Source: a virus
Reading direction: 5' to 3' (one strand)
IMG/VR virus record: IMGVR_UViG_3300006810_008231
Coordinates: 1 to 48,111 of that record
DNA length: 48,111 bases
Shown here: in pieces, positions 12,933-34,813 of the stretch
How the letters are laid out: every line of letters begins with the position of its first letter
How positions within the stretch are numbered: the first letter of the stretch is position 1
The notes under the pieces: model-generated
What the model was told of the DNA's origin: nothing
Databases searched by the model: none
What the model saw: only the letters and a program-made list of their open reading frames with translations
Made by a program: the position numbers and the translations under genes

Positions 12933-12996
12933 AGCAGCTTGGAGTATGCTTTTGAATCCGGGCTAACCCTAATACCAGACTGAACCCCACGCTGCT
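12933..12996 (-). ncRNA. Conserved leader RNA element, copy A (ssb)
   Basis: This lies in the 5' leader of the ssb gene. As RNA: P1 arms AGCAGC-g-UGGGGU and ACUCCA-a-GCUGCU, J1/2 UCAGUCUGGU, P2 AUUAGGG/CCCGGAU with one A-G mismatch and loop UUAG, then J2/1 UCAAAAGCAU. The J strands match copies B and C (17678-17733, 34754-34813) while the stems differ in sequence. P1 is followed by UUUUCUU, which could act as a terminator. Predicted start of transcription is about 13009. No known RNA family was recognised; the ligand or binding partner is unknown. Confidence 0.65.
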
Positions 12997-13015
12997 GTAA
13001 TATTTAACAACACCT

Positions 13016-13044
13016 ATTATAGTGTCAAAACTCAAAAAATCCAA
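13016..13044 (-). promoter_or_regulatory. Sigma-70-type promoter for ssb and the glycan cluster
   Basis: On the minus strand, TTGGAT (13044-13039), a 17-base spacer and TATAAT (13021-13016). The -35 box directly follows the stop codon of the polymerase C-half. The next gene is ssb, with RNA element A in the leader. The exact -10 and optimal spacing make this one of the better promoters in the window. Confidence 0.7.
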
Positions 13045-14613
13045 TTAAATCTCATGAATTTTTTCAATAATAAACGAATTATCACCCTTTTTGACTTCCC
13101 CGCAGAATAAAAGGTTGTTACCCTCGTATAGCATATATTCATATTTCTGTCTAGTTTCCGGAAAGACTACAACACTATCAAGCATACAAGTCTCATCTTC
13201 AATTGTCAAGAAACACATGAGTTGCCCCGGATTCTTTCCGTTCTTAGTCTTGACAGTATTGATACGAATAATATTACCAGCCACACATAGATTGCCGCCA
13301 TATTTACCATCAACAATTTCTTTACACGTTGTAGTAGCAGCCGAGGTATCAGCCGCGTCTATTCTTGATAGAGAAACGGGACACCCTAAAAACTTAATTT
13401 CCTGATCAATAATCCAAGATGGATCATCATCAAGGCTAAATGGTGGATTGTCAATCATTTCGATTTCATTTTGAATTGTTTGACTGCGTGCAACCGTGCT
13501 CGTGCCGCCGCCTTGTTTTTTAGTGGGGGCAATATCTGTAAAACAATCTTTTAGACTAACCCATTCTTTAGCGGAATAATTATTGTTAACCCATTCTTGT
13601 TCTTTTTTAGTCAGGATGCGGAAAATCTCATACTCATATAATGCTTTATTTCTAGATACTCCAGTAGACTTTGTACTGAAGAAACCTATAGATGCTAGGG
13701 CTTTAAAAGATGTAGAGTTTATTTTTGGCGATAGATAGATTAGAACATCCATCCACGAAAAATCTCTGGATGGTTTACCTAATTCTTCTTCTACAGACTT
13801 AACAGTTTCTATAACCTTGTCGCCAGATACTCCAGTAAGCGATTTAATATCTTTGACACCAAAGTATATATCATCACCAAATGCTTCAAACTTTTGGCTG
13901 AAACGTGTCAGGCTTGGAACTTTTACTTCAATGTTGAATAGTTTAGCTTCTGATACAAGTTCATAGATTTCTTGGTGGGGATCTTGCTTGTCAGCAGCAT
14001 GATATAGATAAGATAGAAAAAACTCTTTAGTGTGATTAGCTTTATACCAAGCTGTATGGTATGCGTTTACTGCGTATGAGACACTGTGAGATTTATTAAA
14101 TGCATATCGTGAAGATTTTTCAATCCAGCCAAAGATATCCTCAGCAATTTTCTTTTTAACAATTCCAGTATTAACGCAGCCGCTGATAAACTTAGTTTTA
14201 ATTTTAGCCATCAGGTCGGCTTTTTTCTTACCAATAGCTTTTCTTAGTTCATCTGCTTCTTTAAGATCAAACCCAGCCAATTTCTGAGCGATACGCATTG
14301 ACTGCTCTTGATATACTAGAACTCCATATGTTGCCTTTAGTACATCTTCAAGTGAATTGTCAAGATATGTAACCTTATCTCGTCCATGTTTTCTATCAAC
14401 ATAGTGTTGAGTCATGGATTTACCATCTGTAATAGCTTTAAGGGTGCCGGGTCTGATGATAGCTATAAGAGCCGATAACTCTTCAATATTAGACGGAGCT
14501 AGTCTCTTCGACCACGCTTTACCTAGATTACTCTCTAGCTGAAATACGCCCTTAGTATATCCGTTCTTAAACAGATCCCAAGTCTTTTCATCCTGAAAGT
14601 TAATATCAGACAT
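13045..14613 (-). CDS. dnaE: DNA polymerase III alpha, C-terminal half (split gene)
   Basis: A 522-residue piece of a bacterial-type replicative polymerase. It begins at the point that follows the third catalytic Asp region in intact DnaE: GVFQLESNLGKAW, then VVYQEQ-like LVYQEQSMRIAQKL, LRKAIGKKKADLMAKI and SSRYAFNKSHSVSYAVNAYH, all thumb/fingers signatures, followed by a helix-hairpin region and an OB domain at the end. I use the ATG at 14613, which overlaps the exonuclease stop by eight bases; the longer reading begins with TTG. The catalytic Asp residues are in the other half (16034-17650). No intein is seen. Confidence 0.88.
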   Translation of the reverse strand: MSDINFQDEKTWDLFKNGYTKGVFQLESNLGKAWSKRLAPSNIEELSALIAIIRPGTLKAITDGKSMTQHYVDRKHGRDKVTYLDNSLEDVLKATYGVLVYQEQSMRIAQKLAGFDLKEADELRKAIGKKKADLMAKIKTKFISGCVNTGIVKKKIAEDIFGWIEKSSRYAFNKSHSVSYAVNAYHTAWYKANHTKEFFLSYLYHAADKQDPHQEIYELVSEAKLFNIEVKVPSLTRFSQKFEAFGDDIYFGVKDIKSLTGVSGDKVIETVKSVEEELGKPSRDFSWMDVLIYLSPKINSTSFKALASIGFFSTKSTGVSRNKALYEYEIFRILTKKEQEWVNNNYSAKEWVSLKDCFTDIAPTKKQGGGTSTVARSQTIQNEIEMIDNPPFSLDDDPSWIIDQEIKFLGCPVSLSRIDAADTSAATTTCKEIVDGKYGGNLCVAGNIIRINTVKTKNGKNPGQLMCFLTIEDETCMLDSVVVFPETRQKYEYMLYEGNNLLFCGEVKKGDNSFIIEKIHEI

Positions 14614-15283
14614 ACAAATCCCCGTTAGCAAATGCTTTATCAACTTTTAAATTACGGTATACAGCCCTGTGCGTCTTCATAAATTTAATCATTACATTAG
14701 CTGTATCTTTTACGTCCTGTAGAGCATCGTGTGCATTTTCAGATGATAGACCCATACGTTCACGTAGGCTATCCATGCTAATAGATTTTACATTAGGGTC
14801 GCCTTCAGTCCACATGAAAACATTATCCATTACATCAATTTTATAAATCTGATGAAATAGCTTCTGCCGTTCACGCTTATCATCCCACGGTCCAAATTCT
14901 TTACATAGTCTGTCTATAATAATCATATCATATCCAAGTATATTAAACCCAGCCGGTATTGGGGCAAAGAATGAAGTTCCCTTCCAGTTGTACTTATCAA
15001 CAAACTGAGTAAACTTTTTCCATACAGTTTTTAGGTGTGGAGCCTTAGCTATTTGTTCTCTGGTTTTACCAGTAACCTTTAATGCTCCTTCTTCAATTGG
15101 TCCAAGACCTTTTGCGATAGCTTTCTCGTCATCTACTTCGGCACGTATTTCGCTGTTGAATGTACCCTTCAGCTTGAAATTTCTACCATCAAGTGCTAAT
15201 GCAGCCAACTGCGTGGGTTGACATATTCTTGGGTCTCTACCACCTGTTTCAAAGTCAAATACGATCAAATCTCTATTAGCCAT
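14606..15283 (-). CDS. DnaQ-like DEDDh 3'-5' exonuclease
   Basis: A 225-residue proofreading-type exonuclease. The first acidic pair is in IVFDFETGG (residues 8-16), the second region is GFNILGYDMIIIDRLC (exo II, with Asp), and HDALQDVKDTANVM carries the exo III His and Asp. The family removes mismatched 3' ends during replication. It lies between the two polymerase halves and overlaps the downstream half by eight bases, so it is probably the proofreading partner of the split polymerase. The start ATG 15283 follows the HNH gene by ten bases. Confidence 0.9.
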   Translation of the reverse strand: MANRDLIVFDFETGGRDPRICQPTQLAALALDGRNFKLKGTFNSEIRAEVDDEKAIAKGLGPIEEGALKVTGKTREQIAKAPHLKTVWKKFTQFVDKYNWKGTSFFAPIPAGFNILGYDMIIIDRLCKEFGPWDDKRERQKLFHQIYKIDVMDNVFMWTEGDPNVKSISMDSLRERMGLSSENAHDALQDVKDTANVMIKFMKTHRAVYRNLKVDKAFANGDLYV

Positions 15284-15293
15284 GTGTTTTCCT

Positions 15294-15986
15294 TTAATTA
15301 AGTCCTTGATAATTAGTTATGAGTCTGCACATATCTATAAACTCTTTTTGTTGCAAATCCCATTTCATTTGATTTACCTTTTTGTGGAGCCATTGGACAT
15401 TCCCTTCAATATACCCTTTACTTGGGTCTATTCTATCTAACGAAGCTGTAGCTCTCTGCTTGCTCTTGTTTGTTATAGCAAAGTGTATTGGTTGTCCTGA
15501 TATAGAGCATCTCTTCCCTTGTTTAACAAATAAATCCCAAGCATATTCAATAGTTATGTCAAATTCTAAATTTCTTTTTTTTGCTTCACGTATTACCCTG
15601 CCCCAGTATGAGTGGCGAATATCTTTATATCCACGATACTGCTCATGATCTTTTCCTCTTTTTCTGGATGTACATCCACAACTTTTAGTGTTTCCAGTAG
15701 ACAAGCAGTGGTTTCTTACATCTATTTCTTTACCACAGACACAGACACATCTGAAGACGGCATGACTTTTATCGTCATATCCAACAAGGTGTATTGGTAT
15801 TAAATCTCCAAACGTTTTACCTACATATCTGTCTCTAATATCCTTTCGTATCCCAAACTCTTTCATCTTCTTAGAGATACAAGCCTCAGATACCCCGAAG
15901 TATTTTGCTACTTCTCTTTGCTTCTTACCTTCTATCAACACCATCCTTTTTAATGTTGAATGCGTGATGTCTTCTCGTTTTTTCAT
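15294..15986 (-). CDS. HNH endonuclease, homing-type
   Basis: A 230-residue protein with an N-terminal helix-turn-helix-like segment (GKKQREVAKYFGVSEACISK), a Cys cluster (FRCVCVCGKE and KSCGCTSRKRG, a zinc-finger-like pattern) and an HNH core, GKRCSISGQPIHF then SLDRIDPSKGYIEGNVQWLH. The order matches phage HNH homing endonucleases. It sits exactly between the polymerase N-half and the exonuclease gene, with a strong AAGGAG ribosome site and a TATAAATA box upstream. Such genes move and often lie at gene splits, so it may have helped break dnaE. Its recognition site cannot be read from sequence. Confidence 0.85.
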   Translation of the reverse strand: MKKREDITHSTLKRMVLIEGKKQREVAKYFGVSEACISKKMKEFGIRKDIRDRYVGKTFGDLIPIHLVGYDDKSHAVFRCVCVCGKEIDVRNHCLSTGNTKSCGCTSRKRGKDHEQYRGYKDIRHSYWGRVIREAKKRNLEFDITIEYAWDLFVKQGKRCSISGQPIHFAITNKSKQRATASLDRIDPSKGYIEGNVQWLHKKVNQMKWDLQQKEFIDMCRLITNYQGLN

Positions 15987-16015
15987 AGATAGCTCCTTGT
16001 TAAGTTTGATCTATC

Positions 16016-16023
16016 TATTTATA
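16016..16023 (-). promoter_or_regulatory. TATAAATA box before the HNH endonuclease
   Basis: On the minus strand TATAAATA lies 29 bases upstream of the endonuclease ATG. It is identical to the late promoter box of T4-type phages, which lacks a -35 element and is often found before homing endonucleases. I see no -35 box at the proper spacing. This phage carries a small sigma factor (39402-39887), so a late-type promoter is possible, but a single match of eight AT-rich bases is weak evidence. Confidence 0.4.
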
Positions 16024-16033
16024 CACGAAAAAG

Positions 16034-17650
16034 TCATTTCGCTTGGTTTTCTTCTAGTAACTCCTGTATGTGCATAACTTTATCTAATAACGAGAGTCCG
16101 AGCAAGTCGAACTTAACATGTCCAAGTGCTTCTAAATCTGCCATTTCTAATCCAGCGATTTTTTCTCCACCGCTACGTTGGTTGACCATTGGGCATACTT
16201 TATGTAATGGCTCGGCTGAAATAACAACACCAGCAGCATGTTTTCCCTGAGTCTTAAACGTGCCCTCTATTTCAATTGCCTGCTTAAAAAACTCTGCATA
16301 GTCACCATCAAGATCTCCATTGTCGTTAATGAAACAAAAATCACGGAGGTCGTCAGCGTTATTGATTAATGCCCATCTGATTATAGAACGTTCATCTTCA
16401 TCCATTTCCTGTAGCTGATCGGAAATAGCCGCCTCGTCTGGTATAGACTTAGTAATTTCATTCATTTCACTAAAGCTACACACATCACTGATGCGTAAAA
16501 CTTCTTTAACGGCGCTGCGACCCTGCAATCTTCCAAATGTAAGCATCTGACTTACGTTGTCTTTTCCATAAGTAGATTTAAGATACTCAATGATATCATC
16601 ACGCTTATTAGCTGGAACATCCATATCAATATCTGGAAGGGAATCTGTACGGGCTGCATTATAAAACCTTTCAAATAATAAGTCAAACTCAATTGGGTCA
16701 ATCTGAGTGATTTCAATCAAGTATGAAATAAGACAACCGGCAGCAGACCCTCTACCCGGACCCGCTAACCATCCTTGACTTTTTACATATCGGATAATAT
16801 CTTGCACGATTAGAAAATATCCAAATAACTTAGCTTGATTAATAACATCAAATTCAGTTGTAAATCTATCAAGATACTTCTGCTTGTCGCCTTCTTTATC
16901 TACCTTGCCTGTTTTAGACAGGAATTTCACCCATCCATTACGGCATAGCTGCTTCAGATATTCTTCTTCTGACTGTCCAGTTGGAGTTGGAAACTTTGGC
17001 AGCATTGGCGGATTAAGAATTTCGTAATCTTCGCACAGGTTGTAGATTTTCTCTAAACACAATTGTCCGTATTCATCATCTGGCATCTCGCTATTGGACT
17101 TAACATAGAACGTGTCTTTAATGAAAAACTCTTCATTTTGTTCTAGTTTACCAGATCTTAACAATGTATTTACTTTAGGTAAAGTGGTCTTCATGGCGGA
17201 ACATAGAAGTATTCTATGGAGATGTGCATCGTCTTTCTCAACATAATGTGACGGGGTTGTAAGCGGGTTATGCTTGAATGTAAGCGAATCGTCACATGGG
17301 GACTTATCATGCGTCAGGCATATCAGATTTCCACGTTTACAGATATTTTCAGTAATATGAAAATACTCATTGCCTTCCGGGCTTAACGAGGAAACAATCT
17401 CAATTAAATTGAACCAACCCTGTTTATTCTTTGCGAACAGAGTATAATGATCAAAGGAGCAGCCAATAATTGGCTTGATATTATTATCCTTGCATGTCTT
17501 ATAAAATGATACAGCACCGGATATAGATTTGTAATCTGATATACCGCAGGCTGGATATTCATTCTCAACGCATTTCTTGGACAATTGTTTAGGTTTTGAG
17601 AAACCTTTTAGAAGTGAATAATGTGTATAGTTGCAAAGTGGGTATTTCAT
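16034..17650 (-). CDS. dnaE: DNA polymerase III alpha, N-terminal half (split gene)
   Basis: A 538-residue protein. It starts with a PHP domain (NYTHYSLLKGFSKPKQLSKK, ACGISDYKSISG, IKPIIGCSFD) and continues with the palm: GWLAGPGRGSAAGCLISYL, the catalytic pair in LPDIDMDVPANKRDDIIEYL, FGRLQGRSAVKEVLRI, and the third catalytic Asp in VKFDLLGLSLLDKV near the end. It then stops where an intact DnaE would continue into the fingers; that part is at 13045-14613. It has a promoter and RNA element B upstream. The two halves must associate to make a working polymerase. Confidence 0.88.
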   Translation of the reverse strand: MKYPLCNYTHYSLLKGFSKPKQLSKKCVENEYPACGISDYKSISGAVSFYKTCKDNNIKPIIGCSFDHYTLFAKNKQGWFNLIEIVSSLSPEGNEYFHITENICKRGNLICLTHDKSPCDDSLTFKHNPLTTPSHYVEKDDAHLHRILLCSAMKTTLPKVNTLLRSGKLEQNEEFFIKDTFYVKSNSEMPDDEYGQLCLEKIYNLCEDYEILNPPMLPKFPTPTGQSEEEYLKQLCRNGWVKFLSKTGKVDKEGDKQKYLDRFTTEFDVINQAKLFGYFLIVQDIIRYVKSQGWLAGPGRGSAAGCLISYLIEITQIDPIEFDLLFERFYNAARTDSLPDIDMDVPANKRDDIIEYLKSTYGKDNVSQMLTFGRLQGRSAVKEVLRISDVCSFSEMNEITKSIPDEAAISDQLQEMDEDERSIIRWALINNADDLRDFCFINDNGDLDGDYAEFFKQAIEIEGTFKTQGKHAAGVVISAEPLHKVCPMVNQRSGGEKIAGLEMADLEALGHVKFDLLGLSLLDKVMHIQELLEENQAK

Positions 17651-17677
17651 AATATCCTCAATGAAAAATCAAAAATA

Positions 17678-17733
17678 GAATGGGCATATCGTCTTGAATC
17701 CCGAAATCGGGATATGCTCATGAATGCCCACTC
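17678..17733 (-). ncRNA. Conserved leader RNA element, copy B (dnaE N-half)
   Basis: This is in the leader of the polymerase N-half, beginning at or very near the predicted transcript start. RNA structure: P1 GAGUGGGCAU with AUGCCCAUUC, J1/2 UCAUGAGCAU, P2 AUCCCG/CGGGAU with loop AUUU, J2/1 UCAAGACGAU. P1 is followed by AUUCUAUUUUUGAUUUUU (as written, U-rich), so P1 could serve as a terminator stem. The J sequences match copies A and C. The ribosome site of the gene (GAGGA, about 20 bases on) lies outside the element. Confidence 0.7.
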
Positions 17734-17734
17734 T

Positions 17735-17763
17735 ATTATAGCACAATAACTCAACTTTTACAA
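17735..17763 (-). promoter_or_regulatory. Sigma-70-type promoter for the polymerase operon
   Basis: Minus strand: TTGTAA (17763-17758), 17-base spacer, TATAAT (17740-17735), then AGAG. The predicted start falls at the first bases of RNA element B, so the mRNA would open with the structured element. It sits between the stop of the DUF1501 gene and the polymerase N-half. Confidence 0.7.
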
Positions 17764-17779
17764 GTCAAAACATTGAACT

Positions 17780-19006
17780 TTACAAAAGTTCCTCAATAAG
17801 TCTGCCGCCGTTGGCGATCTTCATTGGTCTTCCACTCTTACTTGTGTAGATGGCCTTGGTGTCAATACTCAGTGCTTGGAGCGTTGTAGCCATGAGATCT
17901 TGGGCTTCATAAGACATCCCGTCGATCATCTTTCCATCGGCTGTTGTTGCACCAATAGCTTGACCTCCCTTAAATAGACCACCAGAAACAAATGCGCTCC
18001 ATGTAGCAGCCCAATGGTCTCTTCCTGCGTTTTGATTAATACGTGGAGTTCTACCAAATTCGCCCATCATTACGATAGCTACATTATCCCACATATTTAA
18101 TCTTTTCAGGTCAAGAATAAGAGTAGATACTACCTTATCAAGTTCTGGCAGTTTAGTACTTAATGTATCATGGGTCATCTGATGAAGATCCCATCCACCA
18201 AAACCAATTTCTACAAACGGCACGCCTTGCTGAATTAACCTTCTTGCCATTAAAGCGCTGTTACCAAGTCCACTATTACCATACATTGCTCTAACTGCAT
18301 CTGGTTCCATCTGTAGATTCAACGCATTCATTTGTGGAGATGTGTTTAGTCTAATCGTTTTTTCATACAACTTTTTATGATCCATAGGCAAGTCGCCACG
18401 ATTAGAATCAATGAACCCCTTCTCTATCATTGTCAGCATTTCTAGTCTATTCTGATTTAACTGACCTCCGAGGTTATTAATCTGACCATTAGAGTTAACG
18501 ATAAATGGGTTGTAGGATGTTCCTAAAAACCCACCACCAACACTGCCTGTACCTACAGAGAAAAATGCAGGTATTTCTAGTTCTTTTCTGGTTTTTCCCA
18601 ATTCGTATGACACAACCGACCCTACAGATGGATGAATAACTGTTGGATTTGGCTTAAAACCAGTATGCATATAATATGTACCGCGCATATGGTCAGCTTC
18701 ACGAGTAGACATGCTGCGTATTACAGAAAAGTCTTTTCCAAGTTTAGCTAACTCAGGTAGATACTCACTAATCTGGAAATCTCCAGCGGTACTAATTGGA
18801 TTATGCGGACCACCTTCTTTTGTTCCGGGTTTTAAATCCCACATATCAATAGTAGGAGGACCACCGCCCAGCCAGATTAGAATCGCAGCCTTTTGGTCTT
18901 TAGTAAGTTGAGAATGATTTTTAATAATCTGTTCACCAAAGGCTAGCGATGTACCAGCAAGGGCGGTTAGCCCTGTTGAATGTCGTATAAAGTCTCTTCT
19001 ATTCAT
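17780..19006 (-). CDS. DUF1501 protein with Tat signal, first copy
   Basis: A 408-residue exported protein of the DUF1501 family, which has an alkaline-phosphatase/sulfatase-like fold and is abundant in Planctomycetes. A twin-arginine signal (MNRRDFIRHSTGLTALAGTS) leads; LIWLGGGPPTIDMWDLKPG contains the first acidic metal-site region; the C-terminal part has GGWDLHQMTHDTLS and MMGEFGRTPRINQNAGRDHW, the family signature. The family's activity is not known to me with certainty. Export through Tat would place it in the periplasm. It follows a Cys-containing conserved phage gene by ten bases. A second copy lies at 20569-21822. Confidence 0.88.
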   Translation of the reverse strand: MNRRDFIRHSTGLTALAGTSLAFGEQIIKNHSQLTKDQKAAILIWLGGGPPTIDMWDLKPGTKEGGPHNPISTAGDFQISEYLPELAKLGKDFSVIRSMSTREADHMRGTYYMHTGFKPNPTVIHPSVGSVVSYELGKTRKELEIPAFFSVGTGSVGGGFLGTSYNPFIVNSNGQINNLGGQLNQNRLEMLTMIEKGFIDSNRGDLPMDHKKLYEKTIRLNTSPQMNALNLQMEPDAVRAMYGNSGLGNSALMARRLIQQGVPFVEIGFGGWDLHQMTHDTLSTKLPELDKVVSTLILDLKRLNMWDNVAIVMMGEFGRTPRINQNAGRDHWAATWSAFVSGGLFKGGQAIGATTADGKMIDGMSYEAQDLMATTLQALSIDTKAIYTSKSGRPMKIANGGRLIEELL

Positions 19007-19016
19007 TTTATTTTCC

Positions 19017-19685
19017 TCACCAAGCTCTACATGACCAGTAGCGGGCTTTCCACTTTGGTCCGGGATTATCGCAATTATGACGCGCTCTAAATGATTTTCG
19101 ACGTTCCGGTATGTTCTTCTTGATCTTCATGTTAGGATCTCCGAAGTTTACCTTGACAACGTTACCCTTTTCATTCTTTACATAAACGCTGAACTTTTTA
19201 GGTCCAGAAGGGGTTCTAAATGGTTTGTTTAGCTTTACTGTACGGCCTTGATATTTTTCAGATTGTGCCTTTTTCCAAGACTCTGGATCTGGCCTGTCTG
19301 GGTCTCCCTTCTTCGCTGGTTTATAATTCTTGCCTTCTCTTTCCTTCTTTTTTCTAATATTTTCCCAGAGTCCGGGACGATCAGCAGCAAAATTCCATTC
19401 TTCTACTTCTGATTCTTCAAAGTCAACTTCTTCGGCTGTTACATAGTCTTCGTCTTCAGGAAGATAAAAATTGTCCTCATTAATTTCTTCTTCAAATCCA
19501 AATGCTTCATATGTAAACTGAAAGTCTGCTGCTTCTACATAATCAATGTCTTCACACGCCTTGCTTATGCATATTGCAGTACGCTGTTTTTGATCTGGAT
19601 ATTCTTCTTTCATCTTTGGGTCACTCATACAGCGACCCATAAACTTGTTCTTATCTTCTTTGCCTTTTTTAGATGGAATTGGCAT
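19017..19685 (-). CDS. Conserved phage-type protein of unknown function
   Basis: A 222-residue protein in three parts. The N-terminus (KNKFMGRCMSDPKMKEEYPD, then QKQRTAICISKACED) is a Cys-containing motif that recurs in proteins of large marine phages. A middle region is acidic (residues 46-100). The C-terminus is basic and ends with NIPERRKSFRARHNCDNPGP and KWKARYWSCRAW, also a recurrent phage ending. I know no biochemical function. The ATG at 19685 follows the PAP2 gene. It may be a structural or assembly protein; this is a guess from charge layout. Confidence 0.5.
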   Translation of the reverse strand: MPIPSKKGKEDKNKFMGRCMSDPKMKEEYPDQKQRTAICISKACEDIDYVEAADFQFTYEAFGFEEEINEDNFYLPEDEDYVTAEEVDFEESEVEEWNFAADRPGLWENIRKKKEREGKNYKPAKKGDPDRPDPESWKKAQSEKYQGRTVKLNKPFRTPSGPKKFSVYVKNEKGNVVKVNFGDPNMKIKKNIPERRKSFRARHNCDNPGPKWKARYWSCRAW

Positions 19686-19694
19686 TAATAACTC

Positions 19695-20351
19695 CTAAAA
19701 ATTTTCTAGTTCTGGAAATAATCTATATCTAATATCTTCCCATAACGCTCCAGTGATTACCATAGAAGCCTCATTGTCTGATGGGTAATGAACCCCCTGT
19801 AGCATTCTAGCCATACCGACATCAGAAACAACCCCAAAGAATTCACCAGAATATTCTGGGTATGCAGACGCTAATACATACGCGCCTAGAGCGCCATAAC
19901 ATGTATGGCCAGATGGATAAGATGGCGTTTTAGCACTTTTCGTATGGATTACTTTTAGCTCAATTCCATACTTTTCTGCTAATTGCTCTGGTCTGGGCCT
20001 ATTATATTTCCACTTCAAGTTCATTACTACGGGGTAGACTAATTTATACGCTTTGTCGAAAATATCTTGTGGCATCTTTAACCCATGCCTTTTAAGGATC
20101 TTATAATAAAGATCAAGCGGTTCTTCGTCTACCAGTTTAATAAGGTCAATCTGTTCAGCGGTTCTATTCTCAGTTAACTCGTGTACATAGTGAAGTTCCT
20201 TTCTTGTGGTTTCACTATTATTAGCAGGGGGTAGCGGTAAAACCCCCTTCCAATTTATTGTGATGTCATTGCTAACATCCCAAGTCTTAGTGGTTTCACC
20301 ATACTTAATTTTATTTAAACTATCTAATATATAGGTTTCTGCTTGTTTCAT
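19695..20351 (-). CDS. PAP2-family (acid) phosphatase
   Basis: A 218-residue protein with all three PAP2 motifs: KWKYNRPRP (motif 1), SYPSGHTCYGALGAYVLA (motif 2, with the catalytic-support His) and GMARMLQGVHYPSDNEA (motif 3, with Arg, His and Asp). The family hydrolyses phosphate monoesters or lipid phosphates. No membrane helices of the lipid-phosphatase type and no clear signal peptide are seen, so it resembles the soluble acid phosphatase/haloperoxidase branch. I use ATG 20351; the longer form starts with TTG. It overlaps the small membrane-protein gene upstream by 32 bases. Confidence 0.85.
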   Translation of the reverse strand: MKQAETYILDSLNKIKYGETTKTWDVSNDITINWKGVLPLPPANNSETTRKELHYVHELTENRTAEQIDLIKLVDEEPLDLYYKILKRHGLKMPQDIFDKAYKLVYPVVMNLKWKYNRPRPEQLAEKYGIELKVIHTKSAKTPSYPSGHTCYGALGAYVLASAYPEYSGEFFGVVSDVGMARMLQGVHYPSDNEASMVITGALWEDIRYRLFPELENF

Positions 20352-20559
20352 TTTTGGTTTCCGCAAAGTACTTTGGTTTTAAGATTTCTTTTGGGGCTAT
20401 CGCTGGTGGCGGGGGAACAGTTATATTGCCAGACTCTGGCTTAACATAAATAGGAATTGGTTGGAGAATCACCGGAACGTGCCTGTGATTTTCCCATAAA
20501 GTATAAACCGATAAAGATAAAGACACACAGACGAAAAACCCCAAAAGAAAATCTTTCAT
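20320..20559 (-). CDS. Small membrane-anchored proline-rich protein
   Basis: A 79-residue protein with one N-terminal membrane segment (FLLGFFVCVSLSLSVYTLW, residues 4-22), then a Pro-rich stretch (VPPPPAIAPKEILKPKYF). It could span the periplasm from the inner membrane, or be a short lipoprotein-like or spanin-like piece, but nothing specific shows this. It lies between the second DUF1501 gene and the PAP2 phosphatase, both of which suggest exported or membrane functions, and overlaps the phosphatase gene. Function unknown. Confidence 0.6.
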   Translation of the reverse strand: MKDFLLGFFVCVSLSLSVYTLWENHRHVPVILQPIPIYVKPESGNITVPPPPAIAPKEILKPKYFAETKNETSRNLYIR

Positions 20560-20568
20560 TTTAGTCTC

Positions 20569-21822: not shown

Positions 21823-21834
21823 CTCAAAACTCCT

Positions 21835-26074: not shown

Positions 26075-26077
26075 TTT

Positions 26078-27340: not shown

Positions 27341-28446
27341 ACTATTTCTCTAATTTGTTCATGTATGAACGTAGTTACATCTTCATTTTCAGACAGGAAG
27401 TCTGTAAGGTTCTGCATCCCTTGAAATTTGAAAAATTTACTAACCGCCTCTTCATCGTTTGAGTTTATTCCATTATCATCTAAAAGTTTTTTGATAGTTG
27501 GATCGGTGCGATTTTCAATAGCTGCTGTAATCTCATACCATGCCCCCGACCTTTTAATCATGCTAAACTCATTAGCTAACTGAGCTATTTCCTGAGCCTC
27601 ATCTATTCCAAGCCCATATCTAATCCATCCCTGTGCTGTCGAGTTTGGTACACCTCCAGATGCAGATGTTAAAATTTTCCAGTTTGCTATTTGTCCAATA
27701 TTTGGTCCAGAGTCATCACCAGTTTTTGTCCACTTGCCCTTATGAGTAATAATCATTTTAGTTCCCGCTTGATACTGGATCATGTTTCCAGAATCTTCCA
27801 TCTTTGCGGGTGCCCATCTGCTACCGCCAGTGTTTGCAATGTTGTGTAAGATGCAAATAACAATAGCTTTATTTCTAGAAACATCACCAGATATTCTCTT
27901 AAAAAACATTGACAATAATCTCGGTAGATTATTTCTGACCCCGGTTCTTACTTCGCCTTCAAGTTCTTCTTGCGGAACCATATTTGACACCGAGTCTACA
28001 ATCACAACTAGATCTGGCGTGCCTTTAATGTATGCTTCTAGTGCGTTCAGATACATTTCTGCTGATACAACTGGTTTTTCGTCTGTGGCTTGAACAATCT
28101 TTATCTTTTTTGGATCTAATCCCTTGATTCCTGTAAAGTTCTCTTTTGTCATGCGACCCTCGGTATTGAAATAAATAATATTCTTACCGAGTGCTTGACA
28201 TTTTGCGGCAAAGTAGAGTGCGGTTGTCGTCTTTCCGGTTTTAGGATCTCCACCTATAATTACACAGTTGCCCTCGCGGATTCCACCTCCAAGAGCAATA
28301 TCCAATGCTGGAGACACACTAATCTTATTAAACTTTTCTAATTTCTCTAGGACTTCCTCTCCGCTTTCTATAATGCCGCCATACTTAGATATAATCTGAT
28401 TACTGACAACATCATCTTCAAATTTACTTACCTTCTTCTTCGCCAC
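27337..28446 (-). CDS. RecA/UvsX-like recombinase
   Basis: A 369-residue recombinase. Walker A is IIGGDPKTGKTTTALYFA, with a non-canonical GDPKTGKTT loop in place of GPESSGKTT; Walker B is LVVIVDSVSNMV, and MGLQ-like loops follow (NNLPRLLSMFFKRIS). It should catalyse strand exchange for recombination-dependent replication. Start is GTG at 28446 with AGGAGA eight bases upstream; it overlaps the preceding gene by 23 bases. Length and motif order fit phage RecA/UvsX. Confidence 0.88.
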   Translation of the reverse strand: MAKKKVSKFEDDVVSNQIISKYGGIIESGEEVLEKLEKFNKISVSPALDIALGGGIREGNCVIIGGDPKTGKTTTALYFAAKCQALGKNIIYFNTEGRMTKENFTGIKGLDPKKIKIVQATDEKPVVSAEMYLNALEAYIKGTPDLVVIVDSVSNMVPQEELEGEVRTGVRNNLPRLLSMFFKRISGDVSRNKAIVICILHNIANTGGSRWAPAKMEDSGNMIQYQAGTKMIITHKGKWTKTGDDSGPNIGQIANWKILTSASGGVPNSTAQGWIRYGLGIDEAQEIAQLANEFSMIKRSGAWYEITAAIENRTDPTIKKLLDDNGINSNDEEAVSKFFKFQGMQNLTDFLSENEDVTTFIHEQIREIV

Positions 28447-28885
28447 GTTCTAATCTCCTAAGTTTATCAAGTGTGGATTTTTTGCCATATGTTTTTTTTC
28501 TAGTAGTTGCATTTTCTTTTACATCAATTTCTTTCTTTTGTTTTTTCTTAGATTGCTCATTTTCTAGCTTATACTTGTCAAGTATACTTTTAACCTTTGG
28601 GTTATTAAGAGAAAATATACTTTTAAACTCTGGACCATGTATAGCTTTAACTACAACTTCTTCCGGATAGTCTTTCAAGATCTTACCAGCAGCGAAGAGT
28701 TGGCGTTTAAATGTCCAGTCCCATGGCTTTTTATTCCAGAATTTGTAAGGTAGCGAACCTTCATTTTTATGTTCGGCATTTTTCAAGCACATTATTTCCG
28801 CAATGTAAGCCGCACAGGTGCAATGGTCGCCAGTAGTTTGATGTCTATACTTACTCTTTTCGGTTCTTCGGCGTTTCTTTAACAT
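28424..28885 (-). CDS. Unknown protein upstream of recA
   Basis: A 153-residue protein. A basic N-terminus (MLKKRRRTEKSKYRH) precedes HCTCAAYIAEIMC, a segment with three Cys, and WDWTFKRQLFAAGKIL. The C-terminal third is lysine- and glutamate-rich and probably helical or disordered. It overlaps the recA gene by 23 bases and the upstream gene by 35 bases, so it is clearly part of the same operon. Function unknown. A DNA-binding role is possible from its charge only. Confidence 0.5.
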   Translation of the reverse strand: MLKKRRRTEKSKYRHQTTGDHCTCAAYIAEIMCLKNAEHKNEGSLPYKFWNKKPWDWTFKRQLFAAGKILKDYPEEVVVKAIHGPEFKSIFSLNNPKVKSILDKYKLENEQSKKKQKKEIDVKENATTRKKTYGKKSTLDKLRRLERGEEEGK

Positions 28886-29270
28886 TGATTATAGCCTCTG
28901 CAAAACAATTCTCAATTGTGTCACTGTATGTTTTTTCAATTATTAGTTCTGGTATCAACCACATCTGCTTCTCAACGCTGTTGCCATTTATCTTGCCATA
29001 AGTAAGGTAGTTTTTAGATGGGCCAGCCATAGATCCCATTACCGATGTAATCAGATATATACGGTCACAATCTGTGACATCCAATATTTCTTCATGAGAT
29101 CTAAACTGTATAGATAAAGACTGGAGAAAAATGCCAGACTGTGTGCTTAGCTTCACCAAGTCTGTCCAGTCTGACATTTTATACATATATCTATCTACGC
29201 CATCGCTAGTTTTACACTTGATCCACGTAGCTTGCTTGTTAGATCTATAATGGTCTAACCATTTTGACAT
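28851..29270 (-). CDS. Hypothetical protein
   Basis: A 139-residue protein, mixed alpha/beta, with no signal or membrane segment. The N-terminus (MSKWLDHYRSNKQATWIKCK) and the segment IYLITSVMGSMAGPSKNYL do not point to a known family. It is expressed with the recA-region genes: its ATG shares one base with the stop of the gene upstream (TAATG), and its end overlaps the next gene by 35 bases. Confidence 0.5.
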   Translation of the reverse strand: MSKWLDHYRSNKQATWIKCKTSDGVDRYMYKMSDWTDLVKLSTQSGIFLQSLSIQFRSHEEILDVTDCDRIYLITSVMGSMAGPSKNYLTYGKINGNSVEKQMWLIPELIIEKTYSDTIENCFAEAIINVKETPKNRKE

Positions 29271-29566
29271 TACTTAGCCTCATTAATTTTGAATACACAT
29301 TTAGGTCTTGGGTTAGATCCACGCTTGCGAATATCATCTGCCATCATAGATGCGTCCTGTGTCATAATGGCTATACCCTCTCTAGTAGCCATCATATTCT
29401 TAGCATTCAATAGCTCTGGTTCATTTCTCTTGCAGTGTGCAACATGTTTTTTTACGGCTGTTTTGCTTCTATCCAAAGCAACACAAATTTCGTCAATATT
29501 TTCACCATTCCAGTGTTGCTCTATGTAAAACTTTTCCGCCGTACCTAGTGGTCCCTGTTTAGCCAT
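29270..29566 (-). CDS. Putative HTH protein with GIAIMTQDAS motif
   Basis: A 98-residue protein. Residues 10-40 (EKFYIEQHWNGENIDEICVA, then LDRSKTAVKKHVAHC) look like a helix-turn-helix of the homeodomain-like type. The second half has REGIAIMTQDASMMADDIRK, which resembles a segment in the FmdB-like gene at 29882-30217 (LAVFVSQDASTIGQLADRN). A DNA-binding regulator is plausible. It ends one base inside the next gene and overlaps the upstream gene by eight bases. Confidence 0.55.
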   Translation of the reverse strand: MAKQGPLGTAEKFYIEQHWNGENIDEICVALDRSKTAVKKHVAHCKRNEPELLNAKNMMATREGIAIMTQDASMMADDIRKRGSNPRPKCVFKINEAK

Positions 29567-29882
29567 CTAGAAAACTCCTTTGTGCTCGTGTCAAGTAGAT
29601 GTTGTTTCTGGTTTTCAGATAAATCATATAATAGTCAAATGTTGACTTTGAAACTTTTCTCATTTTTGTATCAAGAAATTTTACCCTATAGCCATTCATC
29701 CCGTTTGGGTCAAACAGTATGCTTTCATGCACACGTATATAATATAACTGAGATCGCTCATTTCCAATTATTTTTGCGAAAAAATCCTCCTTTTGGCTAG
29801 AAATTTCTTCGCCGTTCTTATTGAATAGCTTTTCAGATCTTTCTTCTTGAATTATATTTTCGTTTTCTGATATAAATTGCAT
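29559..29882 (-). CDS. Hypothetical protein
   Basis: A 107-residue protein starting MQFISENENIIQEERSEKLF (ATG 29882, in a TGATG overlap with the gene upstream; a longer TTG start is one codon earlier). It contains QLYYIRVHESILFDPNGMNG and a basic C-terminus (STFDYYMIYLKTRNN). No domain is recognised. It is part of the small-gene run between phoH and recA. Confidence 0.5.
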   Translation of the reverse strand: MQFISENENIIQEERSEKLFNKNGEEISSQKEDFFAKIIGNERSQLYYIRVHESILFDPNGMNGYRVKFLDTKMRKVSKSTFDYYMIYLKTRNNIYLTRAQRSFLDG

Positions 29883-30217
29883 CAATCACCCTCCATTATC
29901 CATTTATGTCTTTGCTTGGGAGTCATTTTATTTATTTTACGTATATATGACTTGTCTTCTTTTTGAGGTTCACTTTCTAGCTTTTTAGCGGCATCTTCTG
30001 ATAATTTAGATCTGTTTTTCTTAGCGTTTCTGTCTGCTAACTGTCCTATAGTTGATGCGTCCTGTGAAACAAATACTGCTAGACCACCGGATATTAGTCT
30101 CTCATAAGTGTTATTTTTACACTTTGGGCATTTCTTGTGAGGCTCATCGTGTATTGACTGATAAACATCCTGTTGGTGAAACCCGCAGTGGTTACACGCA
30201 TAATCATAATGTGGCAT
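29882..30217 (-). CDS. FmdB-type zinc-ribbon protein
   Basis: A 111-residue protein. The zinc ribbon is YDYACNHCGFHQ and KKCPKCKNN (two CxxC), the start of the FmdB putative regulator family, which is common in phages. ERLISGGLAVFVSQDAS and TIGQLADRNAKKN follow, matching the extended phage version. A basic tail (MTPKQRHKWIMEGD) ends it. The family is thought to be regulatory, with unknown detail. It lies one base from the phoH gene, suggesting joint expression. Confidence 0.75.
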   Translation of the reverse strand: MPHYDYACNHCGFHQQDVYQSIHDEPHKKCPKCKNNTYERLISGGLAVFVSQDASTIGQLADRNAKKNRSKLSEDAAKKLESEPQKEDKSYIRKINKMTPKQRHKWIMEGD

Positions 30218-30218
30218 A

Positions 30219-30884
30219 TTAATCCTCCAGAGCCGATAAGATTCGGCCTATAATTCCATTCCTTTGAATATCTGACTTATCTAATTTGCATATTCCAACC
30301 CCCTTTACACGCTCTAGTTTATTCATACATTCCTCTAGACCGCTTTTATGTCTAATATCGCTCTGTCTAATATCTCCATTGATTAGAACCTTAGACCCCT
30401 CACCCATTCTTGTGATAAACATTTTTATTTGTTCATAAGTGCAGTTTTGGGCTTCGTCTAATATCATATATGTATGATGATAAGTTGCCCCTCGCATGAC
30501 TTCTAGCGGCTGATAACTGATTCTTTTATCATTACAGTACAGCCCATAAAACGCTTGACCTAGAAAAAACTTAAAATTCTCCTGCATGGGTATAAGATAA
30601 GGATTAATCTTTTCCATTAGCTCTCCGGGTAATGACCCAATGTCTTTACCGGCACAAACGAGTGGTCTAGTCACAACTATGTTCTCTATTTCCCCCCTGT
30701 GTAAATGTTCGGCTGCTATACCAGCAGCTATAAAAGATTTGCCACACCCAGCCGGGCCAGAACAAAAGGTTACATCATTCTCAATAATATTTATTATATA
30801 GTTTTTCTGATTTTCAGTTTTAGCTTCTACATGCTTAATATTATGTCTAGATTCTTTAGCTGATTTATTTTTTCGTGATGTCAT
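30219..30884 (-). CDS. phoH: PhoH-like ATPase
   Basis: A 221-residue PhoH-type P-loop ATPase. Walker A is CSGPAGCGKSFIAAGIAAEH (residues 41-60), ENIVVTRPLVCAGKDIGSLP is the family-specific segment, Walker B is YMILDEAQNCTYEQIKMFI, and SKVLINGDIRQSD follows. It may act on RNA in stressed or infected cells; PhoH is frequent in marine phages. It follows dUTPase by nine bases in a nucleotide/stress operon. Confidence 0.9.
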   Translation of the reverse strand: MTSRKNKSAKESRHNIKHVEAKTENQKNYIINIIENDVTFCSGPAGCGKSFIAAGIAAEHLHRGEIENIVVTRPLVCAGKDIGSLPGELMEKINPYLIPMQENFKFFLGQAFYGLYCNDKRISYQPLEVMRGATYHHTYMILDEAQNCTYEQIKMFITRMGEGSKVLINGDIRQSDIRHKSGLEECMNKLERVKGVGICKLDKSDIQRNGIIGRILSALED

Positions 30885-30893
30885 ATGTTGCCT

Positions 30894-31403
30894 TTATTTG
30901 CCAGAACTTCCAAAACCTTTATCACCCCTATATGAGTCGTTTAGTTCGTCCACTTCTACCATAGCAAACATTTGCACTTTTTCTAACAGAATCTGCGCTA
31001 TTCTGTCACCGGACTTAATCCTGACTTCTTGGTGAGTATCTGTATTAAATAGACAAACACCTACTTCACCTCTATATTCACAGTCTATCACACCCGCTAA
31101 AACATCTACCCCACATTTTACTGAAAGGCCAGATCTAGGCCATATCAACCCGCAGTAACCATTAGGAATCTCCATAGAGATGCCAGTCTTAATCAATAGT
31201 CTTTCCTGTGGCCTTAGTATTACATCCTCAGAAGAATATAAATCCCAACCAGCATCGGTGCCTAGATTTTTTGTTGGCAATAAAGCGTTTTCTGATAGCC
31301 GTTTTACTTTAACTGTATTCAATCCAAATTTATTACACATCTTTTCATCCAGTTGTTTCATTCTAGCAATATAGTCTTGGCAAACCACATCGTTATTTTC
31401 CAT
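30894..31403 (-). CDS. dut: dUTPase
   Basis: A 169-residue trimeric-type dUTP diphosphatase. All five motifs are present: AGWDLYSS, WPRSGLSVKCG, AGVIDCEYRGEVGV, GDRIAQILL and RGDKGFGSSG. It hydrolyses dUTP to dUMP, which feeds ThyX and prevents uracil incorporation. A ~27-residue N-terminal extension precedes the core. It lies eight bases after the reductase beta gene. Confidence 0.93.
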   Translation of the reverse strand: MENNDVVCQDYIARMKQLDEKMCNKFGLNTVKVKRLSENALLPTKNLGTDAGWDLYSSEDVILRPQERLLIKTGISMEIPNGYCGLIWPRSGLSVKCGVDVLAGVIDCEYRGEVGVCLFNTDTHQEVRIKSGDRIAQILLEKVQMFAMVEVDELNDSYRGDKGFGSSGK

Positions 31404-31411
31404 TTTTTCTC

Positions 31412-32488
31412 CTATAGAAGTTCATCTAGGTCAAGATCTTCAATATCATTTTTACTTGCACCAATTTTGTAACTTGTAATTTCATGCTCTTGTGGCGCTA
31501 CTTGGACGGCCTCGCTGTTCATCCACGGGTCTGTCCATCCAGAAATTGGATTTTTGTAACCATTATTATATGGCAACCCAATTGCTTTTCTTCTAGAGTT
31601 ACACAACCAATCTATATACTGATGTAGTACAGTCTCATTTAGACCTATAATACTGCCATCTTTAAAGAGATATGATGCCCACTCTTTTTCTTCATGTGCT
31701 GCTGATTCAAACATTTTACATGCTTGTTCTTCACATTCGCTAGCCGTTTCTGTAAAACCCTCTTCTTTTACATTAATCAAGATTTTTAATATCTCCTGAG
31801 TATTGTAAAGATGTAGAGCTTCATCCCTCTTAATTAGCTTAACAATGTCAGCGTTTCCAATCATTTTCTTGTTTTCGGCAAATGCGAAAGCACATACGAA
31901 ACTAACGTAAAATCTAATTGCTTCAAGAATGTTTATACTAATAAGTGTTAAATAAATTTGCTTTTGTATATCCTTATGGGATTTACCTTTAGCAATTTTA
32001 TTCAGAGTATCATATTCTTTAATAGCGACATCTGCACGTTTGAGAATTTCTTTATCGGTCAGACAGCCATCTAAAACTTCAGATGGATCGCTATATACAT
32101 TCTTGATGATATAAGTATAGCTATAGCTGTGAATCTGCTCAAAGAACTGCCAAACATTCATACAGGCTTCTAGCTCTGGATTAGAAACAAATTCCTGTAA
32201 TGTTGGCACGCCTCTACAAATAACGCTATCCATCATTGTCTGATACTTGAGATTACTCGTAAAAATAAATCGCTCATTGTCGGACATAATATTATTGTCC
32301 TTAAAATCATTGCGATCTTTTTTCAGTTCTATCTCTTCGGGCCTCCAGAAGAATTCTAGCTGCTTTTTATACAGGTCAAAAAATACTGGATACTTAAATC
32401 TATCATACCTTTGTAGTGATAGGTCTTCGCCTAGAAACAGAGGTTGATTTAGATAGTCAACATTGGTTTTATTTAGAATAGTTTGCAT
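31412..32488 (-). CDS. nrdB: Ribonucleotide reductase class Ia, beta subunit
   Basis: A 358-residue radical-bearing subunit. The metal ligands and Tyr are in FFEQIHSYSYTYII (Glu, His and the radical Tyr, as in E. coli NrdB), NILEAIRFYVSFVCAFAF, and LIKRDEALHLYNTQEI (Glu and His). The C-terminus DLDLDELL resembles the tail that binds the alpha subunit. It follows nrdA by eight bases in the same transcript and is expressed ahead of dUTPase. Confidence 0.93.
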   Translation of the reverse strand: MQTILNKTNVDYLNQPLFLGEDLSLQRYDRFKYPVFFDLYKKQLEFFWRPEEIELKKDRNDFKDNNIMSDNERFIFTSNLKYQTMMDSVICRGVPTLQEFVSNPELEACMNVWQFFEQIHSYSYTYIIKNVYSDPSEVLDGCLTDKEILKRADVAIKEYDTLNKIAKGKSHKDIQKQIYLTLISINILEAIRFYVSFVCAFAFAENKKMIGNADIVKLIKRDEALHLYNTQEILKILINVKEEGFTETASECEEQACKMFESAAHEEKEWASYLFKDGSIIGLNETVLHQYIDWLCNSRRKAIGLPYNNGYKNPISGWTDPWMNSEAVQVAPQEHEITSYKIGASKNDIEDLDLDELL

Positions 32489-32496
32489 GTTTTACC

Positions 32497-34722
32497 TTAA
32501 ATAGCACAGGCGCCGCTTTCGCAGGTTGATTTTTCAGTTTCGCCATCTCCGTCTGGAGTGTTGGCATAATAAAAGTTTTTCAATCCATATTTGTATCCGT
32601 ATAACTGATCTTTCAATAGAGCACTTAGCGGAATGTTTCCTTCTTCAAAATTAGCATAATCATAATAAAGATTTGTACTAATGCCCATATCAACAAATTT
32701 CTGTATGACTGCCGATATATTCATAATACATTTATTATCTGGTAATTCCCACGCTCTTGTGTAGTAGTTTTTTCTATGTGAAAAATTAGGAACTATTTGC
32801 TTTAGGATTCCATTCTTGGCTTTCTTATAAGATAGTAGATTTCTAACAGGCTCAATTCCGTTTGTGCTGTTCTGAATAACACTGCTAGACTCACACGGCA
32901 TAACTGCGGACAGGGTTGAGTGACGTAGCCCATGCTCTTTAATGCGAACACGTAGTCCATCCCAATCCATATTGTAAGTAGGACTTACAAGTTCATCTAC
33001 TGTCTTCTTGTACCAGTCAATTGGCAATAAGCCCTTAGAATATTTAGTATCTTCAAATCCTTTACATCTACCTTTTTCTTCTGCTAACTTGCATGATTCA
33101 TTAAGAAGATGCCACTGAATTTTTTCCATAACCTCATGAATTAGATGAAGTGCGGTATTATCATAATAGAAGACTTTATTCTTAGCTAGAAATCCAGCAA
33201 GGTTTGTTATACCAATACCAAGAGATCTTCTATTCTTAGTGAATCTTTCTCCAGCTTTAACTGGATAATCCTGATAGTCAATAATAGACTCAAGCAACCT
33301 TACGGCCATAGCACATGCTTGTTCTATATCCTTGTCACTATTAACTTCAAGCAAGTTAATCGCAGACAACATACAGATGCCAATTTCACCATCCTCATCA
33401 TCTATAGAACTGATTGGCTTTGTATGATGAAGAATTTCTACACATAGGTTTGTCATTTTTACTGGAGCATCCCAGCTTCCATGCTCATTACATGTATCAA
33501 TATTCATAGAATATATACGACCAGTTTCCAGTCTCTCTCTACAGAATATTTCCATCAACTTTCTTGCTGATATTTTTCTTTTAAACTGTAGCTTTCTAGA
33601 GTTTTCATACTTTAGGTATAACTTTTCAAATTCTTCATTGTCGCCAAAAGCCTCATATAAGCCGGTGGCTTCATCTGGACTGAACAAAGTAATATTTTCG
33701 TTCTTTACAAGTCTCTCATAAAACAGTTTACAAAACTGAACTGTATAGTCAAGTTTTCTAACCCTGTTATCGTCTGTTCCAGCGTTATTCTTTAATACGA
33801 TGATGTCATCTATCTCATAGTGCCAGAATGGAATATTGACGTTAGCAGACCCGCCACGTATGCCGTTTTGCGACGTAGACTTAACAGCAGCTTCAAAGTT
33901 TTTCAGATATGGAATTAATCCAGTATGAATTACTTCACCACCACGTATAGGCGAATTAATCGGTCTGATCCGACCTGCATTTAACCCAATACCGGCCCTG
34001 CGTGCAGTATAACGCCCAACGGCATGAATAGAAGAGAATATACTATCTAAGTCGTCACCAACATCTACGAGTACACATGAAGCAAACTGCTTGATAGTTG
34101 TACGCACACCAGCCATGATTGGCGTTGGTAGGTTTATTTTAAATGTAGAAAAACAATCATACGCAGTTTTAACATCACGTATATCGTCAAATAGACACAT
34201 TGCAATTAGTATATAGGCAAACTGTGGAGTTTCATAAATCTCTCCAGTTGATCTATTCTTTACTAGGTATTTATCAATCATTTGTTGTAGACCCGCATAA
34301 GTATACAGGTCGTCACGTTCATGCTTCATGAACGATTCAATTTTTTCAATATCTTGATCTGACCATTTTTCAAGTATGTTTGGGTCGTACACCCCATTAT
34401 CAACTCTTACCTGAAGATGATGAAGTAAACCGGTAGGATTATTCGGTTCGTGCCACACATCTTTTCTTAAAGACATGTTCAGCAACCGCGCTGCTACCTG
34501 TTGATAGTTTGGAGTATCAGTAGAAATCAAATCAGATGCGGACTTAATAAGTATCTGATGTATTTTTCTTGTTTCAATGCCATCTGAGATAGAAAGATTA
34601 GAATTCATTTCTATATCAGAAAACGATACTCCGGCTATTCCTTCTGTTGCCCATTCCAAAACTTTATGAATTTTTTCAACATCATAGTTTTCCGACTCTC
34701 CGTTTCTTTTGAGAACGTGCAT
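32497..34722 (-). CDS. nrdA: Ribonucleotide reductase class Ia, alpha subunit
   Basis: A 741-residue alpha subunit with an N-terminal ATP cone (MHVLKRNGESENYDVEKIHK). The active-site Cys regions are FASCVLVDVGDDLDSIFSSI, MTNLCVEILHHT and IGICMLSAINLLEV, and the radical-transfer Tyr pair is in LKNFYYANTPDG. The C-terminus ends CESGACAI with the redox-active Cys pair. It reduces ribonucleotides to deoxyribonucleotides. RNA element C (34754-34813) lies in its leader. The ribosome site is AAGGAAT. Confidence 0.95.
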   Translation of the reverse strand: MHVLKRNGESENYDVEKIHKVLEWATEGIAGVSFSDIEMNSNLSISDGIETRKIHQILIKSASDLISTDTPNYQQVAARLLNMSLRKDVWHEPNNPTGLLHHLQVRVDNGVYDPNILEKWSDQDIEKIESFMKHERDDLYTYAGLQQMIDKYLVKNRSTGEIYETPQFAYILIAMCLFDDIRDVKTAYDCFSTFKINLPTPIMAGVRTTIKQFASCVLVDVGDDLDSIFSSIHAVGRYTARRAGIGLNAGRIRPINSPIRGGEVIHTGLIPYLKNFEAAVKSTSQNGIRGGSANVNIPFWHYEIDDIIVLKNNAGTDDNRVRKLDYTVQFCKLFYERLVKNENITLFSPDEATGLYEAFGDNEEFEKLYLKYENSRKLQFKRKISARKLMEIFCRERLETGRIYSMNIDTCNEHGSWDAPVKMTNLCVEILHHTKPISSIDDEDGEIGICMLSAINLLEVNSDKDIEQACAMAVRLLESIIDYQDYPVKAGERFTKNRRSLGIGITNLAGFLAKNKVFYYDNTALHLIHEVMEKIQWHLLNESCKLAEEKGRCKGFEDTKYSKGLLPIDWYKKTVDELVSPTYNMDWDGLRVRIKEHGLRHSTLSAVMPCESSSVIQNSTNGIEPVRNLLSYKKAKNGILKQIVPNFSHRKNYYTRAWELPDNKCIMNISAVIQKFVDMGISTNLYYDYANFEEGNIPLSALLKDQLYGYKYGLKNFYYANTPDGDGETEKSTCESGACAI

Positions 34723-34753
34723 TGTATTCCTTTATATGTCAATTTAAAAAGAG

Positions 34754-34813
34754 ACCGGCCAGATATGGTTTTGAATCTAAATTAGATTAGATATCTTATT
34801 GAATCTGGCCGGT
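34754..34813 (-). ncRNA. Conserved leader RNA element, copy C (nrdA)
   Basis: In the 99-base gap before nrdA. RNA structure: P1 ACCGGCCAGAU paired perfectly with AUCUGGCCGGU, J1/2 UCAAUAAGAU, P2 AUCUAA/UUAGAU with loop UCUAAU, J2/1 UCAAAACCAU. P1 is followed by CUCUUUUU, so the pair could be an intrinsic terminator for transcripts coming from the gene upstream. Between P1 and its partner are 38 bases, the same as in copy A. No good promoter is seen just upstream, unlike A and B; read-through from the envelope operon would deliver it. Confidence 0.7.

Follow-up and report, generated by a model that had tools for sequence, protein, structure and literature searches.

An RNA element consisting of two covarying stems around conserved UCA loops was found in 67 distinct copies on about 27 IMG/VR phage contigs by covariance models, whole-contig searches and a pattern scan. 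This element family of environmental phages is previously undescribed and has no Rfam entry, and searches of open full texts returned no paper whose title and abstract describe the motif. Concerning its function, we infer an intercistronic signal for RNA processing or end protection that would be read by a dimeric protein, a reading which we hold with about as much confidence as doubt. It is favored since junctions in precursor RNAs, rather than a pathway, are common to the sites of the element.

Three copies in the window

The window denotes the whole analyzed stretch of 48,111 nucleotides (virus record IMGVR_UViG_3300006810_008231). A first-pass annotation had described three two-stem structures on its minus strand, and their sequences, places and pairings proved to be as described. 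A two-stem descriptor (P1, TCA plus seven bases, P2 hairpin, TCA plus seven bases, P1) returned exactly these three sites in the window compared to none in 200 dinucleotide-preserving shuffles, and minimum free energy folding gave z-scores of -2.0, -4.8 and -7.2 for the three copies. The genes following them, previously assigned to replication and dNTP metabolism, were confirmed as ssb, the N-terminal half of dnaE and nrdA. The features are as follows:

12933..12996, minus: copy 1, ssb leader, variant type (see below) with a G-C pair at 8-8'
12996-12984 (5') and 12945-12933 (3'), minus: P1 arms of copy 1
12983-12974 and 12955-12946, minus: loop strands of copy 1, J1/2 UCAGUCUGGU and J2/1 UCAAAAGCAU
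12973-12956, minus: P2 hairpin of copy 1
17674..17737, minus: copy 2, leader of the dnaE N-half, C-G pair at 8-8'
17737-17724 and 17687-17674, minus: P1 arms of copy 2
17723-17714 and 17697-17688, minus: loop strands of copy 2, J1/2 UCAUGAGCAU and J2/1 UCAAGACGAU
17713-17698, minus: P2 of copy 2
34754..34813, minus: copy 3, between a gene for 138 aa and nrdA
34813-34803 and 34764-34754, minus: P1 arms of copy 3
34802-34793 and 34774-34765, minus: loop strands of copy 3, J1/2 UCAAUAAGAU and J2/1 UCAAAACCAU
34792-34775, minus: P2 of copy 3
12983-12946, 17723-17688 and 34802-34765, minus: loop-to-loop spans of copies 1, 2 and 3
12589..12900, minus: ssb, downstream of copy 1 (PHROG 44)
16034..17650, minus: DnaE N-terminal half, downstream of copy 2 (PHROG 405, profile 243-618)
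32497..34722, minus: nrdA, downstream of copy 3 (PHROG 84)
17735..17763, minus: sigma-70-like promoter TTGTAA-17-TATAAT at copy 2, consensus match only
13016..13021, minus: TATAAT box upstream of copy 1, from sequence only, kept in L015-L017
34746..34753, minus: U-rich run after P1 of copy 3, with comparable runs after copies 1 and 2

The promoter predicted at copy 2 by its consensus match would place the transcription start at or inside P1, and the U-rich run after copy 3 is a possible terminator tail in the window clade.

The window DnaE is split (13045-17650, minus strand) into halves corresponding to profile positions 243-618 and 623-1055, with two genes in between, one of them encoding an RNase_T-family exonuclease. 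L060 shows this gene order, too, again with DnaE in split form and a gene resembling an exonuclease. Just upstream of the dnaE leader, a full-length DUF1501 protein is encoded (17780-19006, minus strand; Pfam PF07394, E=1e-86).

Homologs and covariation

The first covariance model identified 42 copies in whole contigs, and the pattern scan of IMG/VR added 13 further contigs with the element; the maximum was seven copies in a contig of 120 kb. Among the close relatives by DnaE and SSB in IMG/VR (L015-L018), the structure was found with different stems at the orthologous leaders, before ssb in L015-L017 and before dnaE in L015-L018, while L002 carries a copy nearly identical to copy 3. In more distant phages, the element occupies other places. 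A model trained without the window clade (R3) recovered the nrdA copy at E=2.6e-7, whereas the dnaE and ssb copies reached only 14 and 11 bits; in a 5.1-kb stretch, they ranked first (E=0.1) and second (E=0.44) with a clade-free model. These two copies are assigned to the family because of the orthologous copies in L015-L018.

No match at E<=1 was obtained in 395 kb of four close relatives that lack the element, and no isolate or named phage with the element was found by DNA similarity. When a looser pattern was applied to 84,980 bacterial and archaeal genomes, no match among those listed was convincing after a check of the stems, and a gapped sequence pattern of the window version gave chance matches only. 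The window copies overlapped no Rfam match at gathering thresholds or at E<=5, and the elements of L060/L063, L403, L405, L233, L394 and L402 matched none in Rfam 15, where only tRNA and tmRNA families were hit in these contigs. The first-pass proposal of an aptamer or protein-binding RNA was thus refuted by neither search, since relatives with compensatory stem changes exist and an Rfam counterpart was not found.

In L095 (567-627) and L077 (1329-1389), a coding gene upstream of dnaB contains a structure resembling the element (E=6e-4 and 0.044), whose stems are conserved between the two phages and whose loop letters vary. Since its central helix is incomplete, these copies are treated as doubtful, and they are possibly due to chance.

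Within the alignments, 215 two-sided pair changes were counted over 43 copies compared to 73 in shuffles, and an early set of 18 copies had shown 89 compared to 32. The six-base-pair core of P1 is paired in all sequences of alignment A2, and P2 in 93% of the cells. The U-A pair closing P1, the UCA with which both loop strands begin, the pyrimidine at position 10 and the A-U pair closing P2 are invariant or nearly so, while positions 4-6 of each loop strand are free to vary. This bears out the earlier view that a conserved loop between covarying stems marks a genuine structured RNA which is probably recognized by a partner.

The loop itself, described before as an open ten-by-ten internal loop, is conserved but is not open in the main type, which comprises 60 copies. 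Here, positions 7 and 8 pair with positions 8 and 7 of the opposite strand, with Watson-Crick pairs in 58/60 and 57/60 copies. The two pairings, 7-8' and 8-7', gave z-scores of 9.2 and 10.2 against permutation, a strength like that of P1 and P2, and in a set of 33 copies the central helix was paired in 66 of 66 cells with 36 two-sided changes. Cross-pairing of the loop in the opposite register (sum 11) was unsupported, so that only register 15 holds. The architecture of the main type is accordingly P1, a UCANNN/UY loop (6x2), two base pairs, a UY/UCANNN loop (2x6) and P2. Since the central helix splits the loop into these two parts, the element has a near two-fold symmetry.

A variant type comprises the window copies and those of L015, L016 and L002. 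In none of its seven distinct copies is 7-8' paired, while 8-8' is a Watson-Crick pair, G-C or C-G, in all seven. As L017 carries the main type at the same ssb and dnaE leaders, one type stands in for the other at orthologous sites.

The P2 pentaloop CUAGA recurs on differing P2 stems in L394, L395, L396, L203 and L018, which suggests a constraint on the apical loop as well. An impression by eye that tandem copies might kiss did not hold across relatives, again judged by eye.

Genomic positions and alternative readings

The element shares its strand with the upstream gene in 44 of 45 cases and with its downstream neighbor in 41 of 48, and G-U pairs outnumber A-C combinations by 37 to 9. Both observations indicate that the sense-strand RNA is the selected form. 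Besides the leaders of the window clade, the sites include tandem doublets before dnaE with a spacing of 62 nt, triplets between phoH and a zinc-ribbon gene, a junction at which stop and start codons overlap in element-free relatives, single copies that part a stop codon from a separate strong terminator (four contigs), and, among relatives, the 3' UTR of an operon. Many copies end 9-40 nt before a start codon. In the tRNA-bearing contigs, the element lies directly 3' of 5 of 12 tRNAs compared to 0 of 20,000 random intergenic placements, and it was also found directly 5' of two tRNAs. In G102, the two pieces of a permuted tmRNA (Rfam RF04321, 83 bits, E=1.9e-16) are separated by an intervening sequence that one copy of the element fills. 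The intervening sequence of a permuted tmRNA is an RNA that must be removed. At L404:1770-2021 (contig 3300020438_002496), the permuted tmRNA (RF04321, 83 bits) lies beside tRNA-Glu, and ordinary tmRNAs were seen in other element-bearing contigs (L421, L435 and L439). The permuted form hints at Alphaproteobacteria as a possible host group.

For the family as a whole, these positions do not support the proposed tie to replication and dNTP genes or a dNTP or nucleotide ligand, since relatives of the element lie beside tRNAs, in the permuted tmRNA, after phoH and in an operon 3' UTR. A small-molecule aptamer, for example a riboswitch for dNTPs, would account for conserved loop nucleotides between variable stems and for the genes of dNTP and DNA metabolism after the window copies. 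A riboswitch would be expected to have a highly conserved core and to serve one pathway, whereas very few nucleotides are conserved here, three positions of each loop strand vary freely, and the contexts, including sites after tRNAs, in the tmRNA and in 3' UTRs, are functionally unrelated. We therefore regard this reading as highly improbable.

The window leaders of ssb, dnaE and nrdA could also point to an operator, at which a phage regulatory protein would control translation or transcription downstream, or to a put/nut-like site of processive antitermination. T4 gp43 and gp32, which autoregulate on their own mRNA leaders (PMC3014915), provide a precedent, and the short distance to start codons, the tandem arrays and the two-fold symmetric site would be compatible with it. 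Nevertheless, such an operator is unlikely, since in 7 of 48 cases the element and the downstream gene lie on opposite strands, copies occur after tRNAs and inside the tmRNA gene, and the putative target genes are functionally unrelated.

While the U-runs allow a further explanation, their distribution is uneven. The element might be a promoter-plus-stem-loop cassette, a leader terminator or attenuator like the T4-type PeSLs that limits read-through and permits modular shuffling. For the window clade, this agrees with a U-run after P1 in all 10 copies, with promoter-like boxes ahead of copies 1 and 2, and with plain terminator hairpins in the nrdA (L004-L009) and dnaE (L034) leaders of element-free relatives. 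Since these relatives have plain U-run hairpins there, a hairpin as such seems to be useful at the two leaders. Across the family, a U-run of four or more follows only 10 of the 59 other copies, in four contigs the element is closely followed by a strong terminator separate from it, and the conserved UCA loops and the central helix would be superfluous for a terminator. The earlier idea of P1 as a terminator stem may consequently hold for the window clade, but does not apply family-wide, and the cassette is rather unlikely as a general explanation. The U-runs and promoter boxes likely reflect an extra role as terminator or 5'-stabilizer in the window copies only.

PeSLs are promoter early stem-loops (Arbiol 2010 and Comeau 2014, as cited in PMC4503421). 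As far as they are characterized there, they resemble the element in combining a promoter and a stem-loop at gene boundaries, in several copies per genome that vary in presence between relatives (PMC4503421). Copies 1 and 2 of the window look like such an arrangement. Compared to PeSLs as outlined in that source, most copies of the element have no promoter and no terminator tail, and the sites after tRNAs and in the tmRNA differ. By inspection, a promoter is absent at the tRNA, 3'-UTR and tandem sites. Likewise, UCA loops with a helix of two base pairs are, to our knowledge, not a PeSL feature. The empty sites and a partial deletion of the element would be compatible with the recombination and module shuffling of PeSLs.

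Copies of the element seem to be gained and lost quickly, as indicated by remnants: in L165, upstream of dnaE (8585), one of two tandem elements has collapsed, and L205 (4205-4290) has half an element ahead of a complete one. Together with sporadic presence, empty sites in relatives and tandem copies, these remnants could reflect a small palindrome, mobile or self-propagating like REP or MITE elements, whose insertion targets are gene ends and whose RNA fold is only a by-product. Such an origin is very unlikely, since the stems differ wholly between copies while pairing is kept, the sense orientation is strict, G-U pairs exceed A-C, and there is no common terminal sequence beyond UCA.

Proposed RNA processing and possible partners

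For the preferred reading as a processing or end-protection signal, we propose that the phage-borne element punctuates polycistronic transcripts. The two identical UCA loop faces would be bound by a host or phage protein, as a homodimer or in two copies, and the two-fold symmetry would suit such a dimeric partner. The binder would probably be either an endoribonuclease, with host RNase III as an example, or an exonuclease-blocking protein, and cutting or shielding at the element would provide defined ends for mRNA segments, tRNAs and tmRNA pieces. In the window clade, where the element follows a promoter and carries a U-run, it may double as a 5'-end stabilizer or attenuator. The sites at tRNA 3' ends, in the tmRNA intervening sequence and between stop codon and terminator, and those of the tandem arrays where genes meet, argue for processing. 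The window copies, which lack the two-base-pair helix in the main register, and the promoter-proximal dnaE site, which leaves little upstream RNA to process, argue against it.

Intercistronic RNase III sites are known from T7-type phages. Like these, the element is an intercistronic hairpin of the sense strand with an internal loop, present several times per genome. Unlike these, it has a double 6x2 loop with a fixed UCA on both strands and is a putative site known from sequence. Furthermore, RNase III normally requires a longer regular duplex. A search of 17 contigs, some with and some without the element, found neither an encoded RNase III nor a dsRNA-binding domain, so that the nuclease would come from the host or be of an unknown kind. 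In a comparison of gene content, no RNA-binding protein tracked the presence of the element; the best-correlated gene families were a glycosyltransferase and a sigma-like factor. The sigma-like factor was dropped as a partner, as G008, with seven copies, gave no match to it. The window encodes a sigma-factor-like protein of 161 aa (39402-39887, minus strand; PHROG 351/1740); several contigs that carry the element encode relatives of this protein, and none was detected in four relatives that lack the element.

The element might also cut itself as a symmetric ribozyme or be cut at the central helix by a dimeric phage or host nuclease, and thus excise itself from mRNA, tRNA and tmRNA precursors, which we consider quite unlikely. 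Theta (HDV-like) ribozymes adjoin phage tRNAs and resemble the element as phage RNA structures placed immediately at the 3' ends of tRNAs, which hints at processing of the trailer (PMC10879173). In contrast to their nested double pseudoknot, the element is a symmetric two-stem hairpin with a nested fold around a central helix of two base pairs, it has no Rfam ribozyme match, and it is common between protein genes, too. Judged by sequence, the element is not established as a member of the PeSLs, the RNase III sites or the theta ribozymes.

The U1A polyadenylation-inhibition element has two identical single-stranded boxes flanking a short helix and is bound by two copies of the same protein. The phage element likewise presents identical boxes on opposite strands around a short helix, which is an architectural analogy only, as the U1A element is eukaryotic and differs in box and spacing.

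Altogether, the element represents a recurrent RNA family of environmental phages with covariation at the level of base pairs, including a helix of two base pairs that is visible by comparison only. Its positions point to a common step of RNA processing or protection imposed by the phage. If cleavage holds true, the element would be a compact, symmetric and sequence-light processing signal, and a self-excising form would be a categorically new two-fold symmetric RNA module. If it is bound by a protein, it would offer a route to a new RNA-binding partner.
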